From NCBI RefSeq assembly GCF_009604375.1, contig NZ_WEGH01000001.1, positions 1 through 64,000 of the forward strand: a stretch of DNA of 64,000 nt. The letters are read 5' to 3'. Of this stretch, positions 59,758 to 64,000 are shown piece by piece. Below the pieces are notes generated by a model that was given only the letters and a program-made list of their open reading frames with translations, was not told the origin of the DNA and ran no database searches. Numbering within the stretch: position 1 is the first letter of the stretch; the number at the start of each line of letters is the position of its first letter. Both the position numbers and the translations under genes were made by a program. The stretch comes from Actinomadura macrotermitis. Lineage in GTDB: Bacteria; Actinomycetota; Actinomycetes; Streptosporangiales; Streptosporangiaceae.

Positions 59758-59792
59758 GGACGCGAGGCCGGGGAACTGTCGGGCGGCTGCGC

Positions 59793-59798
59793 TAGCCT
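59793..59798 (+). promoter_or_regulatory. -10 box TAGCCT of the nuclease-helicase operon
   Basis: TAGCCT lies 7 nt before ATG 59806, so the transcript would start at the ATG (leaderless). No convincing -35 box; GGAACT (59772-59777) lies 15 nt upstream of it. The gene has no ribosome site in front. Confidence 0.45.
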
Positions 59799-59805
59799 CC
59801 TCGCC

Positions 59806-60630
59806 ATGTCCTCGGGCCCCGACGAGCTGGAGGCCCGCATCGGCGAGCTGCGGGCCGCGGTCCGCCGTGCGATGGCGGCCGGCGACCGCGCCGCCGCCCG
59901 GCGGCTGCGGGCCGGGCTGCGCGAGGCCGAGCGCGCCTGGGACGAGGCGGTGCTCGGAGCCGACGAGCCTTCACACGGGCCCTCACACGGGCCCTCGCAC
60001 GGGCGCGTCCGGCCGCCGGCGCGCGACCAGGCGCACCGGGCGCTGACGCTGCTCGGCGTCCCCGCCGCGCCCAAGCTCGTCGCGTCGGTGCACGCGGCGT
60101 TCTTCCCCGCCGAGCCCGCCGCCTCCCTGGCCAACCTGCGCCGCGACGAGGAGCGCTCGTTCCGCAGCGCGCCCCACGCCCGCCCCTACTACCTGTGCGC
60201 CGCGCTCACCGCCGACCTGCTCGCCCCCGCGCGCGGTCTGCTCACCATCAGCACTTGGTCGCTGGAGCGCCGGGTCGTCGGGCGGCTCAGCGCGCGCGCC
60301 GACTTCCTGGCGGCCGCGATCAACGTGGCCGGGCACGTCCGGCGTGACACACCGGACGTGCAGCGGCTGCTGTGGCGTTTCGCGGCCAACATTCCGGACG
60401 CGTCCGGTGGTGCGATCGGTACAGTCGACCCGGTGGCCCTCGCCGGGGCCGCGCGGGCCGAGCTGGCCGTCCACCGCGACGCCGACCGGCGCGAGCGGGC
60501 CGCGGCGGCCGCCCGCGCCGCGGCCGGGCTCGGCGAGGCCGAGCGGCTGTTCGGCAGCCGGCTGCGGTCGCTGCGCGCCGCGTCCGGCGAGTCCCACCGG
60601 CCACGCCCCACCGACGGAGAAGACCGATGA
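59806..60630 (+). CDS. uncharacterised first gene of the nuclease-helicase cassette (274 aa)
   Basis: No family recognised. The N-terminus is a coiled coil (LEARIGELRAAVRRAM... GLREAERAWDEAV), then a triple repeat of PSHG (12-bp units at 59967-60003), then a domain with ALTLLGVPAAPKLVASVHAA, LRRDEERSF and STWSLERRVVGRL, which looks like a winged helix. The C-terminus is helical. Its stop overlaps the next start as ATGA, so it is cotranslated with the nuclease and probably part of the same complex. Confidence 0.55.
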   Translation: MSSGPDELEARIGELRAAVRRAMAAGDRAAARRLRAGLREAERAWDEAVLGADEPSHGPSHGPSHGRVRPPARDQAHRALTLLGVPAAPKLVASVHAAFFPAEPAASLANLRRDEERSFRSAPHARPYYLCAALTADLLAPARGLLTISTWSLERRVVGRLSARADFLAAAINVAGHVRRDTPDVQRLLWRFAANIPDASGGAIGTVDPVALAGAARAELAVHRDADRRERAAAAARAAAGLGEAERLFGSRLRSLRAASGESHRPRPTDGEDR

Positions 60631-61721
60631 CCGAGACCGCGCCGGACCTGGACCGGCTGCGCGGCGGCGCTCCCCCGCGCAACCACGACGCCCGCACGAT
60701 CGCGGCGCTCACCGCCAACCCCGGCTGCGCCCGGCGCGGCGTGATGGACGCCGCCGGGGTCGACAAGGACGCGGTGGCGCGGCAGCTGGGCTTCCCCGCG
60801 CCCTACGGCCAGTCCCAGTTCGCCATCACCCGCGGGAACGTGTTCGAGCAGCAGGTGAAGGCCGACGGCTGCGCCGAGCTGCTCACGCTGCTGCGCGACC
60901 GGCTCGGCCTCACCGTCCCCGAGGCCCGCTACGACGACCTGGAGGAGGTCGCGGGCAGCGAGAGCCGCGAGATGCGGCACGCCCGCACCCGGCGGCTGCT
61001 CGCGCGTGCCCTGGAGACGGGCGAGGGCACCCTGTTCGACCATCCGCTGCTGCGGCTGGAGATCGGCGGGCGGGCCGTCTACCTGGAGCCGGACGTCATC
61101 GCCTTCCAGCTCGCCGGCCGCTTCCACGTCGTGGAGATCAAGTCGTTCGCGGTGATCGACGGGCAGGCCGAGCCCGAGCAGGTCGCCGCCGCCGCGCGGC
61201 AGTCGGCGGTGTACGTGCTGGCGCTGCGCCGGCTGGTCGCCGAGCTCGGGCACGACCCGGCGCGGGTGGCGCACGAGGTGTTCCTGGTCTGCCCGGAGAA
61301 CTTCACCAACCGGCCGACGGCGACGCCGGTGGACGTCCGCCCGCAGCTGGCGGTGGTGGAGCGGCAGCTGGCCCGGCTCACCCGGGTCGACGAGATCGTC
61401 GCGGCGCTGCCCGCGGACCTGACGTTCGCGCCCGGCGCGGCGCTGCCGGAGTCGGTGCGGGCGGTGCAGGCGCGCTACGCGCCCGAGTGCATGGCCAGCT
61501 GCGAGATGGCGTTCTTCTGCCGGGACGAGGCGCGGGCGTGCGGGGCGACCGGCGCGCTCGGCCGGTCGGTGCGCGACGACCTCGGCGGGGTCGACTCGAT
61601 CGCGATGGCGCTCGCGCTGGCCGAGGGCACGCTGGAACCGGCCGCGGAGCTGGCCGAGACCGCCGCCCAGCTGCGCACCGCCACCCGGCTGCGCCGCGAG
61701 GCCCTGGGCGGTCTCCATTGA
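60627..61721 (+). CDS. Cas4/RecB-like PD-(D/E)XK nuclease with Fe-S cluster (364 aa)
   Basis: PD-(D/E)XK core: Asp156 (LEPDVIAF), Glu170-x-Lys172 (FHVVEIKSF), and RecB motif IV QxxxY at Gln192-Tyr196. Four cysteines match the iron-staple of Cas4/AddB/Dna2: Cys34 (PGCARRGVMD) and Cys288, Cys292, Cys298 (ECMASCEMAFFC). This should be an iron-sulfur exonuclease or endonuclease. ATG 60627 overlaps the previous stop. No cas1/cas2 genes or CRISPR array lie in view, so it is not a CRISPR adaptation nuclease here. Confidence 0.82.
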   Translation: MTETAPDLDRLRGGAPPRNHDARTIAALTANPGCARRGVMDAAGVDKDAVARQLGFPAPYGQSQFAITRGNVFEQQVKADGCAELLTLLRDRLGLTVPEARYDDLEEVAGSESREMRHARTRRLLARALETGEGTLFDHPLLRLEIGGRAVYLEPDVIAFQLAGRFHVVEIKSFAVIDGQAEPEQVAAAARQSAVYVLALRRLVAELGHDPARVAHEVFLVCPENFTNRPTATPVDVRPQLAVVERQLARLTRVDEIVAALPADLTFAPGAALPESVRAVQARYAPECMASCEMAFFCRDEARACGATGALGRSVRDDLGGVDSIAMALALAEGTLEPAAELAETAAQLRTATRLRREALGGLH

Positions 61722-63178
61722 GCGTGCTGTCCTCGCTGGCGCGGCTGGAGGCGGCGGCGACGGGGCGGGCGCAGCCCGTGGCGACCGTCCGGCACTGCCA
61801 TCTGGCCGGGGCGCCGCTGGTGATGATCCCGCTGAAGCTGGCGGGCGAGGCGGCGGCGCCGCTGGCGGTCATGCTCGGCCGGGACCGGGCCGAGCCCGCG
61901 TTGCTGGTCGTGCCGCAGCCGCGCAACCGGGACCTGCGGTTCGCGTTCGCGGCGGACCTCGCCAAGATCGTGCTGGAGCACATCGAGGCGAGCCGGGGCG
62001 CCGCCGAGGCGCTGGCGCCGGGTAAGGACGGCGAGGAGCGTTTCCGGTACACCGACGCCCCGCAGATCCTGCTGCCCAATCCGGGCGGGGTGGGGTTCCT
62101 GGCGCGGCTCGGGCGCTCCACCCGGTTCCGCAGCACCGAGGGCCCCTACGCGGTGGAGCCCGGTGTGCCGGCGCTCGGCCGCTGGCTGACCTGGTTCGCC
62201 GACCGGCACGATCACCCCGGGTCGTCGCTGCTGCTGACGGTGACCGAGGCGCTGCGGCTGCACTGGGCCACGGGCCAGAGCTCGCTGGAGGACGGCAATC
62301 TGGCCGCGCTGATGGGCTGGATCGATCCGCCGGACGGCCTGGACGGCGCGGCGGCTGCCGCCCGCGCCGAGGACCCCGTGGTCTGCCCGCCCGCCGGGCC
62401 CGCGACGGACCCGACGTTCGACAACGAGGTGCTCGCCCCGGCGATCGCCTCCTATGACGAGACCGGACACGAGCAGCGCGTCCGCACCGCGCTGGAGGGC
62501 CAGCTCGCCCCGACCTGGGATCTGATGTGGCGGGCGGTGGACCTGCTGCGTGCGCTGCCCGAGGGTGCGAGCGTGGCCAAGCGCTGGGAGCGCGACCGCG
62601 ACGGTTTCACCTGGTTCCACCGCAACTTCGACGAGGGCGTGCCGCAGCCGCGCCGCGACACCGCCGTCCGGGCGGCGCGGCGGCTGCACGACCTGGAGCG
62701 CGCGCAGGACGCCTACGAGGCGCAGCGGGCCTTCGACGACCCGTTGATCATGGCCGAGCACCGGCTGAACGGGCAGGCGTTCGGCGGCGTGGTCGCCGGC
62801 GGCGACCCGGCCCGGCTGGACGAGTCCGGCAAACGCCCCAAACTGCGCCCGCATCTGCTGATCGCCACCGCCGACCCGGTGCGGCTGGACACCGGGACGG
62901 CCGTCTGCAACGCCGCCCGCCCCGGCCTCAAAGGCAAGATCGTCGACATCGGCCCGGACGGGGTCACGGTGGAGCTGACCGGCGGCATGGGCAACCGGCT
63001 CACCCCCGCCCCCGGCTCCGTGCCCGAACTCGGCGATCGGGTGGTGTTCACCTCGCTGACCGGCGGGTCGTTCGGCCCGGCCCGGTTCCCCGACCGCGAG
63101 AGCACGCCGTGGACGCACGGCGGCCCGCCGCCCGAGTACGTCCCGGCCGACGAGGACGCGCAGGAGGAGTGGTCATGA
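61718..63178 (+). CDS. uncharacterised middle gene of the nuclease-helicase cassette (486 aa)
   Basis: No family recognised. It starts at TTG 61718, overlapping the nuclease stop (TTGA); GTG 61724 is an alternative. The first 140 residues look like a beta-rich fold (VATVRHCHLAGAPLVMIPLKL... PALLVVPQPRNRDLRFAF). The middle is helical (LLRALPEGASVAKRWERDRD), and the end has KGKIVDIGPDGVTVELTGGM followed by GDRVVFTSL, which resembles an OB/SH3-type beta-barrel of the kind fused to helicases. Its stop overlaps the helicase start (ATGA). Confidence 0.55.
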   Translation: MSVLSSLARLEAAATGRAQPVATVRHCHLAGAPLVMIPLKLAGEAAAPLAVMLGRDRAEPALLVVPQPRNRDLRFAFAADLAKIVLEHIEASRGAAEALAPGKDGEERFRYTDAPQILLPNPGGVGFLARLGRSTRFRSTEGPYAVEPGVPALGRWLTWFADRHDHPGSSLLLTVTEALRLHWATGQSSLEDGNLAALMGWIDPPDGLDGAAAAARAEDPVVCPPAGPATDPTFDNEVLAPAIASYDETGHEQRVRTALEGQLAPTWDLMWRAVDLLRALPEGASVAKRWERDRDGFTWFHRNFDEGVPQPRRDTAVRAARRLHDLERAQDAYEAQRAFDDPLIMAEHRLNGQAFGGVVAGGDPARLDESGKRPKLRPHLLIATADPVRLDTGTAVCNAARPGLKGKIVDIGPDGVTVELTGGMGNRLTPAPGSVPELGDRVVFTSLTGGSFGPARFPDRESTPWTHGGPPPEYVPADEDAQEEWS

Positions 63179-64000
63179 CCCTGGACGCGCTGCCGCCCGC
63201 CGAGGCCGCGGGCCGGGTCGTGGACGCGGTGCTGGCCGACCTGGCCCGCGACCACCGCGGCGTGATCGTCGACTCGCCCCCGGGGGCCGGCAAGTCCACC
63301 CTGGTGGTGCGGGCGACCGCGCACCTGGCCGCCGCGGGCGAGCGCATGATGATCGTGGCGCAGACCAACGAGCAGGTCGACGACCTCATCGAGCGGATCG
63401 CCGCCAAGCATCCCGATATCGAGGTCGGGCGGCTGTCGGCGTCGGGGTACGTCCCGTCGGAGCGGGTGCTGGCGGCGCCGTCGGTGAAGGTGGCGCAGAA
63501 GGCCGACGACGTCGCCGAACGGCCCGTGGTGATCGCGACGGCGGCCAAGTGGGCGACGCTGTCGGAGGGGTCGTGGCCGTGGGCGATCGTCGACGAGGCG
63601 TACCAGATGCGCTCGGACATGCTGCTGCGCATCGCGGGCCGGTTCGAGCGGGCGCTGTTCGTGGGTGACCCGGGCCAGCTCGACCCGTTCTCCACCGTCG
63701 AGGTGGAGCGCTGGGCGGGCCTGTCGTGGGACCCGATGCGCAGCGCGGTGTCGGTGCTGCTCGCGCACAACCCCGATCTGCCGGTGCACCGGCTGCCGGT
63801 GTCGTGGCGGCTGCCCGCCTCGGCCGCGCCGGTGGTGTCGCGGGCGTTCTACCCCTTCACCGGGTTCCGGGCGGGCACCGGGCCCGGCGACCGGCGGCTG
63901 GAGTTCGGCGCGCGGGGCATGGGCACCGCGCACGACCGGGCGCTGGACGAGGCGGCGGCGTCCGGCTGGGCCCTGTACGAGCTGCCCGCCCGGCACACCC
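63175..64000 (+). CDS. SF1 helicase, N-terminal part, cut by the window end
   Basis: ATG 63175 overlaps the previous stop and the frame stays open to the end (275 codons). Walker A SPPGAGKST (res 34-42), motif Ia VAQTNEQVDD, Walker B IVDEAYQM (res 138-145) and motif III LFVGDPGQLDPF give a superfamily 1 helicase of the UPF1/RecD/Cas4-associated type. The C-terminal RecA domain is outside. It would unwind DNA (or RNA) for the partner nuclease. The window does not show whether more genes follow. Confidence 0.85.
   Translation, partial: MTLDALPPAEAAGRVVDAVLADLARDHRGVIVDSPPGAGKSTLVVRATAHLAAAGERMMIVAQTNEQVDDLIERIAAKHPDIEVGRLSASGYVPSERVLAAPSVKVAQKADDVAERPVVIATAAKWATLSEGSWPWAIVDEAYQMRSDMLLRIAGRFERALFVGDPGQLDPFSTVEVERWAGLSWDPMRSAVSVLLAHNPDLPVHRLPVSWRLPASAAPVVSRAFYPFTGFRAGTGPGDRRLEFGARGMGTAHDRALDEAAASGWALYELPARHT

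Follow-up and report, generated by a model that had tools for sequence, protein, structure and literature searches.

What does a run of four tightly joined genes, among them a putative nuclease and a helicase, do in the genome of Actinomadura macrotermitis? The genes, here called A to D and together ABCD, lie at the right edge of a 64,000-nucleotide stretch (the window), which opens a 2.5-Mb contig in a genome of 8.53 Mb. The first-pass annotation of this DNA offered two options, a stand-alone DNA-processing or defence complex and a conserved actinobacterial repair operon, and each proved partly right: the repair operon suits the window copy best, and defence finds support in other copies. The window copy is a conserved chromosomal operon in Actinomadura and Streptomyces-type genomes, not a sporadic defence locus. 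The reading that we favor, with moderate confidence, is that ABCD encodes a nuclease-helicase for processing DNA ends or damaged strands, which would be damage-induced as a core copy and would have been reused elsewhere as a partner module in immunity.

Gene Layout and Distribution of the Cassette

The features on which the analysis draws are as follows, in window coordinates.

59776-59798, + strand: site resembling a RecA-NDp (PafBC-type) promoter, CTGTCGGGC-N8-TAGCCT
59806-60630, + strand: gene A, 274 amino acids, with a conserved LRRDEERSF...RPYYLCAAL core
60627-61721, + strand: gene B, 364 amino acids, Cas4/RecB-like PD-(D/E)XK protein with four cysteines (judged from motifs, conservation and an AlphaFold model)
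60726-60728, + strand: codon of C34 in B
61092-61094, + strand: codon of D156 in B
61134-61136, + strand: codon of E170 in B
61140-61142, + strand: codon of K172 in B
61488-61490, + strand: codon of C288 in B
61500-61502, + strand: codon of C292 in B
61518-61520, + strand: codon of C298 in B
61718-63178, + strand: gene C, 486 amino acids, TTG start (open reading frame and predicted model)
62411-62767, + strand: long helices of C, within residues 232-350 (AlphaFold model)
62777-63052, + strand: strand run of C, residues 354-445, read as a possible beta barrel (AlphaFold model)
63175-64000, then on to contig position 64494, + strand: gene D, 439 amino acids, superfamily 1 (SF1) helicase of the UPF1/SMUBP-2/DNA2 type (Pfam and PDB profile)

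As first annotated, the four genes are open reading frames on the + strand whose junctions are four-base overlaps (ATGA, TTGA, and ATGA), and D, truncated at the window edge, could be followed in the contig to its end at 64494. A convergent gene for an ABC-transporter ATPase starts 2 bases beyond the end of D, and the neighbors of the window cassette are ordinary, e.g., methyltransferase and ABC-transporter genes. Identical gene order recurs in nearly all fetched relatives (loci hand-picked for diversity and second copies), with A or D missing in some, and the B/C and C/D overlaps were found again in many of them. The A-B-C-D association is far beyond chance. B and C are the constant pair of the cassette, B accompanying C at every locus but L116, where C is 90 bases from the contig end.

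The best 29 named matches all come from Actinomadura except one from Spirillospora. Among the matches listed, which are ordered by kinship, C is present in 11/11 sampled members of the host genus; across the host family it occurs in 110/200 genomes, from 32/68 genera. It was found in 70 of 394 genomes of the class (15/137 genera) and in 12 of 296 genomes of the phylum, one of the 12 lying outside the class, and it reaches 141 of 150 Streptomyces-type genomes, individual C places in that sample being those among the matches listed. Flanking genes are common to the window copy and all five genus loci tested. The first-pass annotation had held that universal conservation under a known repair name would undo its suggestion of something new; the conservation in the host genus and in Streptomyces-type genomes bears this out by half, and no repair name was found. 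Three records matched among plasmids, namely two Streptomyces plasmids and one chromosome-sized Nonomuraea record. A phage origin was rejected, B having no match in phages and C none in viral contigs (searched with two peptide patterns only). The out-of-class genome (L182, 6059-11604) carries a B-C-D operon in which a 564-amino-acid PD-(D/E)XK/RNase H-like gene overlaps the end of D.

A Probable Damage-Type Promoter in Front of the Core Operon

The leaderless-style -10 element noted at first is present: TAGCCT at 59793-59798, 7 nucleotides ahead of the ATG of A. For scoring we took the RecA-NDp (PafBC) consensus to be TTGTCRGTG-N8-TANNNT and counted matches over its 12 positions at an offset of 6-8 nucleotides from a possible in-frame start. 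Scoring covered the loci whose upstream sequence was long enough, and in-frame starts other than the annotated one were allowed. Passages in three papers refer to the motif by name, without its letters, and to PafBC as its regulator (PMC5087735; PMC6789036; PMC8223512).

Measured against this assumed consensus, the window copy matches 9 of the 12 positions at offset 7, a moderate fit, and at least 9 was reached at offset 6-8 by 12 of 882 background genes. In the Actinomadura group, 31 of 35 rows score at least 8, vs. 31 of 882 background genes, and all nine Streptomyces core loci score 10-11, where at least 10 occurs in 5/882. These rows are related and partly duplicated, and so are not independent. 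Island copies of the cassette (described below) reach 8 in 0/20 cases, and copies beside pPIWI-RE genes in 0/5. Within this genome, the pattern with at most one mismatch occurs 26 times, vs. twice for a reversed control; 11 of the 26 occurrences have a start 6-8 nucleotides behind them, including uvrC-, radA-, and uracil-DNA glycosylase (ung)-like genes, and one lies 61 nucleotides ahead of a recA-like gene (gene names by reading). From the scores and the genomic counts together, the core operon of Actinomadura and Streptomyces probably belongs to the RecA-independent (PafBC-type) damage regulon.

The Actinomadura loci share a common block upstream of A, whose end, about 7 nucleotides before the ATG, is in most cases TACTGT or close to it. 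In many of them (L102-L130), CTGGAA-like words are repeated at a spacing of about 10 bases upstream of the -10; they are decayed in the window copy, and may possibly be an operator.

Gene B, a Putative Iron-Sulfur Nuclease

The Cas4-like label given to B at first gained support from its motifs, conservation, and predicted topology, and found none among curated families. No match to B came from Pfam, NCBIfam, or PADLOC, PHROGs returning one family of unknown function (0.015), so that no curated Cas4 profile recognizes it; a PDB sequence profile gave no credible match, and the nuclease family PF12705, which has four places elsewhere in the genome, does not recognize B. One N-terminal and three C-terminal cysteines follow the pattern of an iron-sulfur (Fe-S) staple, from which the cluster itself is predicted. 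C34, C288, C292, and C298 are invariant in 28/28 rows of a smaller set, and in a larger set (rows longer than 250 amino acids) C288, C292, and C298 stand in 154/154 rows and C34 in 153, with a single gap. The full Fe-S cysteine set first reported is thus conserved practically throughout. The nuclease residues are retained in most homologs: D156 and K172 each in 149 of the 154 rows, E or Q at position 170 in 144, and all three together in 140. The 154 rows include at least six duplicates, from the duplicated loci L022/L127, L023/L146, L024/L144, L025/L153, L027/L147, and L029/L168, which also recur among the promoter rows.

The AlphaFold model of B (pLDDT 86.9, pTM 0.82) begins with a long helix and strands bearing or bordering the active-site residues; a second helix and a further pair of strands lead to a helical region with the cysteines, the topology expected of a RecB-like PD-(D/E)XK fold. 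D156 is modeled just ahead of strand 157-162, E170 inside strand 165-171, and K172 just after it, which places the predicted active site on neighboring strands. In host-family core copies L027, L030, L031, L032, L040, L043, and L050, B has lost D156 or E170 and retains all four cysteines.

Gene D and the Two Proteins Without a Family

The initial SF1 helicase call for D holds. Pfam finds AAA_11 (3e-11), AAA_12 (4e-7), and related families; the D profile has its nearest solved relatives in SMUBP-2 (2.6e-13), DNA2 (1.2e-10), and UPF1 (1.6e-10), senataxin being another relative; and residues P35, G37-K40, D140-E141, G164-D165, Q168, R212, Q347-G348, and R382 are invariant in 27/27 rows, as helicase motifs of a UPF1/DNA2-like SF1 protein. 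D is without roughly 200 residues that precede the region matched in SMUBP-2. It is absent from 23 loci, five of which end at a contig edge. At Micromonospora loci, e.g., L136 and L145, and at L074, D is missing or about 2.4 kb further downstream, and at L074 a GGDEF-EAL gene directly follows C.

A and C, which the first-pass annotation could not place, gave nothing usable with Pfam, PADLOC, NCBIfam, or PHROGs and no credible match with PDB sequence profiles, and no significant curated-family match exists for B either; hhalign found no mutual homology among A, B, C, and D. In 42 loci with C, A went undetected; these include the nine Streptomyces core loci and many Micromonospora loci. The AlphaFold model of C (pLDDT 88.7, pTM 0.86) consists of an N-terminal alpha/beta part, a helical part, the long helices of residues 232-350, and the strands of residues 354-445, which may form a barrel. 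None of its Foldseek matches is significant. Those ranked higher are for the most part flavin reductases, F1-ATPases, and other barrels; senataxin comes at rank 11 (E 0.076) and DNA2 only at rank 48 (E 0.38), both weak. C may hold the 1B stalk and barrel that D lacks, a possibility against which stands the persistence of C without D.

Copies in Defense Islands Beside SbcCD and Wadjet

The survey of defense-island placement called for at first came out differently for the two kinds of copy, negative for the window copy and positive for others beside SbcCD and Wadjet or pPIWI-RE genes. SbcCD adjoins ABCD in 20 fetched loci, a tally from selected loci that were hand-picked and hence no random sample, and 14 of the 20 carry Wadjet type I, II, or III genes (at least one Jet gene). 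By Wadjet content, the loci with SbcCD and ABCD are:

Wadjet type I, six loci: L041, L042, L059, L060, L065, L085
Wadjet type II, four loci: L072 (about 9 kb from C), L077, L078/L183, L083
Wadjet type III, four loci: L034, L055, L086/L094, L087/L095
JetD_C-like protein only, two loci: L091, L093
No Wadjet gene in the stretch seen, four loci: L071, L082, L092, L161

On the two Streptomyces plasmids, JetABCD follows the cassette; ahead of it, in divergent orientation, are SbcDC matches, which in L059 are split into several pieces. At L161, SbcCD is downstream of ABCD on the same strand. L084 has a type II Wadjet and no SbcCD in the fetched stretch. At L091, L092, and L093, SbcCD-ABCD stands beside large unknown proteins; L091 and L093 have a JetD_C-domain protein and no JetABC in the fetched stretch, L093 also being near Mu-type transposase and AAA genes. 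Host-family loci L033, L035, L036, L051, and L054 lie beside assorted genes (ankyrin, WD40, CHAT, and Schlafen-type helicase) and stand outside these classes. No Jet subunit was found among A-D with PADLOC, which likewise supplied no usable family for an island copy. In the host, JetD_C has no match in the genome, and the SbcD gene is on another contig than the window.

The least biased figure comes from the sample of 150 Streptomyces-type genomes, in which the A profile, absent from core loci, marks non-core copies. It found 16 loci in 14 genomes: ten have a JetD_C or type II JetA match no more than 15 kb away, four are beside pPIWI-RE genes, and two are beside neither. SbcCD was present in 9 of the 14 such loci that were fetched. 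Seen from the other side, 7 of 21 JetD_C places in this sample adjoin the cassette, as does type II JetA in 3 genomes (G575, G586, and G294) of the 53 having one; in the host family, searched with JetD_C, the figure is 4 of 38 JetD_C places.

That Wadjet types are swapped next to an unchanging cassette speaks for a functional partnership. The A-D proteins of L084 (type II) and L085 (type I) are 96-99% identical and those of L083 (type II) and L059 (type I) 91-95% identical, and the C tree agrees with the swaps; repeated insertion at a hot spot could also produce them. A single clade of island copies is not supported, as the SbcCD label needs five changes on the C tree (a quick tree, no bootstrap; a D tree was also made). 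Streptomyces-type island copies (genus of G216) are 91-95% identical to those on the named Streptomyces plasmids.

Several SbcCD-ABCD-Wadjet islands of Streptomyces lie near the ends of linear replicons. In few-contig genomes, island copies are about 5 kb from the contig end in G642, 24 kb in G602 and G676 (both ends), and 15 kb in G513, the second ends of G602 and G676 being judged from coordinates and contig ends not necessarily being telomeres; on a linear plasmid, the distance to the end is about 11-16 kb. The copy in G657 is located 0.5 Mb inward, and those of G563 and G589, both pPIWI copies, are far from the ends. Published work describes Wadjet and Lamassu as concentrated toward the ends of Streptomyces chromosomes (PMC10482375), and position by itself is therefore no novelty; the name SbcC has 0 occurrences in that text. 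Among published titles and abstract openings, none was found on the ABCD cassette or on Wadjet beside SbcCD.

In a separate set of five Streptomyces-type loci (L066, L068, L088, L089, and L090), ABCD stands divergently beside pPIWI-RE Z and Y/REase genes, in islands where a nuclease gene of family PF12705 is also present; in at least three, the gene behind D is an HmaA-like helicase. Residues E170 and K172 of B are gone from all five copies, which form one clade on the C tree. The pPIWI-RE system was proposed to act on R-loops, in passages that make no mention of the ABCD cassette (PMC3702460).

Proposed Function and Alternative Explanations

In the function that we favor, B would cut a strand as an Fe-S-stapled PD-(D/E)XK nuclease and D, a small SF1B-type motor, would open the DNA, while C, the constant partner of B, would hold B and perhaps D and may supply a stalk-and-barrel part; A would be an accessory subunit, perhaps DNA-binding, in a presumed physical complex. 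The host operon would be expressed on DNA damage via its putative PafBC-type promoter, and its product, together with further repair factors, would trim or degrade strands that are broken or damaged. Presence in all sampled members of the host genus, shared flanks, and the match to a damage-type promoter make an unfamiliar repair operon the best fit for the window copy. Defense islands would have taken up ABCD copies more than once, and there the cassette may act beside SbcCD (Mre11-Rad50) and Wadjet; partnership with Wadjet suggests that it disposes of Wadjet-opened DNA, most likely by degrading or resecting it. Beside pPIWI-RE genes, it would work with an inactive B. A more specific and quite tentative proposal is that SbcCD and ABCD form a chassis that partners Wadjet of any type, Wadjet opening circular foreign DNA and both then destroying the uncapped ends, so that capped linear replicons are spared; the damage-induced ABCD of the host would be the repair ancestor or twin. 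Linear plasmids are described as evading Wadjet (PMC10586767).

Several observations weigh against this picture. A promoter score of 9 is common when the offset is ignored, occurring in 87 of 921 background upstream regions of 250 bases; the score of the window copy is ordinary there, and its case therefore rests on position and on its relatives. Core genera other than Actinomadura and Streptomyces score at least 8 at offset 6-8 in 4 of 83 rows only. Of 684 Foldseek matches of the C model in the PDB, 0 reach E ≤ 0.001. The helicase can be dispensed with, as 18 non-edge loci (17 of them in Micromonospora or Verrucosispora) keep B and C with no D within the fetched stretch. Four SbcCD loci lack a Wadjet gene, and most JetD_C places stand without the cassette (14/21 in the Streptomyces-type sample, 34/38 in the host family). 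By these counts Wadjet usually goes without the cassette, yet in the Streptomyces-type sample non-core ABCD is seldom away from defense genes. The active site of B is degenerate in 14 of the 154 rows (L027/L147 counted twice) with the cysteines kept, and this, with the loss of D and A in some lineages, would suit a mainly structural or DNA-binding B-C module with vestigial nuclease activity and optional D and A; since the site is retained in 140 rows and the degenerate ones include no Wadjet-island copy, such a module seems barely plausible.

The chief rival is work on R-loops, in which D would unwind RNA-DNA hybrids like senataxin or SMUBP-2 and B would cut the displaced strand; the complex would then protect against conflicts between transcription and replication and, in islands, turn on foreign DNA under active transcription. 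The relatives of D (SMUBP-2, UPF1, senataxin, and DNA2), senataxin among the weak structural matches of C, the copies next to pPIWI-RE genes, and the RNase H-like neighbor of the out-of-class BCD operon all point this way; however, the helicase family of D includes DNA enzymes, SbcCD and Wadjet target DNA, and the promoter match points to DNA damage in general, and we consider the idea unlikely. That the window copy is itself a stand-alone anti-phage or anti-plasmid system, as first suggested, would accord with the other copies in defense islands and on two plasmids, but its ordinary neighbors, its presence in every genus member among the matches listed, its shared flanking genes, and its match to a damage-type promoter speak otherwise, as do the missing JetD_C match in the host and the missing matches of B in phages and C in viral contigs, and this is decidedly improbable. 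A divergent end-resection enzyme of the AddAB/AdnAB/RecBCD type would likewise combine a four-cysteine nuclease with an SF1 motor for the same broad task; with D on the UPF1/DNA2 side of SF1 and free of a nuclease domain, and B missed by the PF12705 profile that finds four other places in the genome, the chance of this is very small.

If the favored function is correct, actinobacteria have a conserved nuclease-helicase for which no name was found, with DNA2-like parts and a new subunit, and one machine would serve both in the damage response and, interchangeably, as a partner to Wadjet of type I, II, or III. It would then be possible to test directly what becomes of plasmid DNA after Wadjet cutting and why, on linear Streptomyces chromosomes, Wadjet tends to lie at the ends. 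ABCD would link DNA repair to bacterial immunity, as its sister copies sit in anti-plasmid and anti-virus gene islands.

Comparison With Known Systems

AddAB, AdnAB, and RecBCD are nuclease-motor pairs that resect DNA ends, with UvrD-type motors fused to the nuclease, a fusion not seen in ABCD. Cas4 is a small RecB-like nuclease with four cysteines; B is of a similar type, but has no profile match and keeps other partner genes. Copies of ABCD adjoin Wadjet genes (JetABCD) of all three types, whereas the cassette contains no Jet subunit and its core copies have no Wadjet beside them. With the three-gene pPIWI-RE islands, the likeness is one of company, and the active site of B is lost there. 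DNA2 unites an Fe-S PD-(D/E)XK nuclease and an SF1B helicase in a single chain. ABCD has both kinds of part in separate genes, and thus not in a single polypeptide; the window B cysteines are spaced CX3CX5C, and B has a further companion, C, of no known fold. The profile match of D to DNA2 adds to the likeness, and the island link of ABCD to SbcCD would fit end resection.

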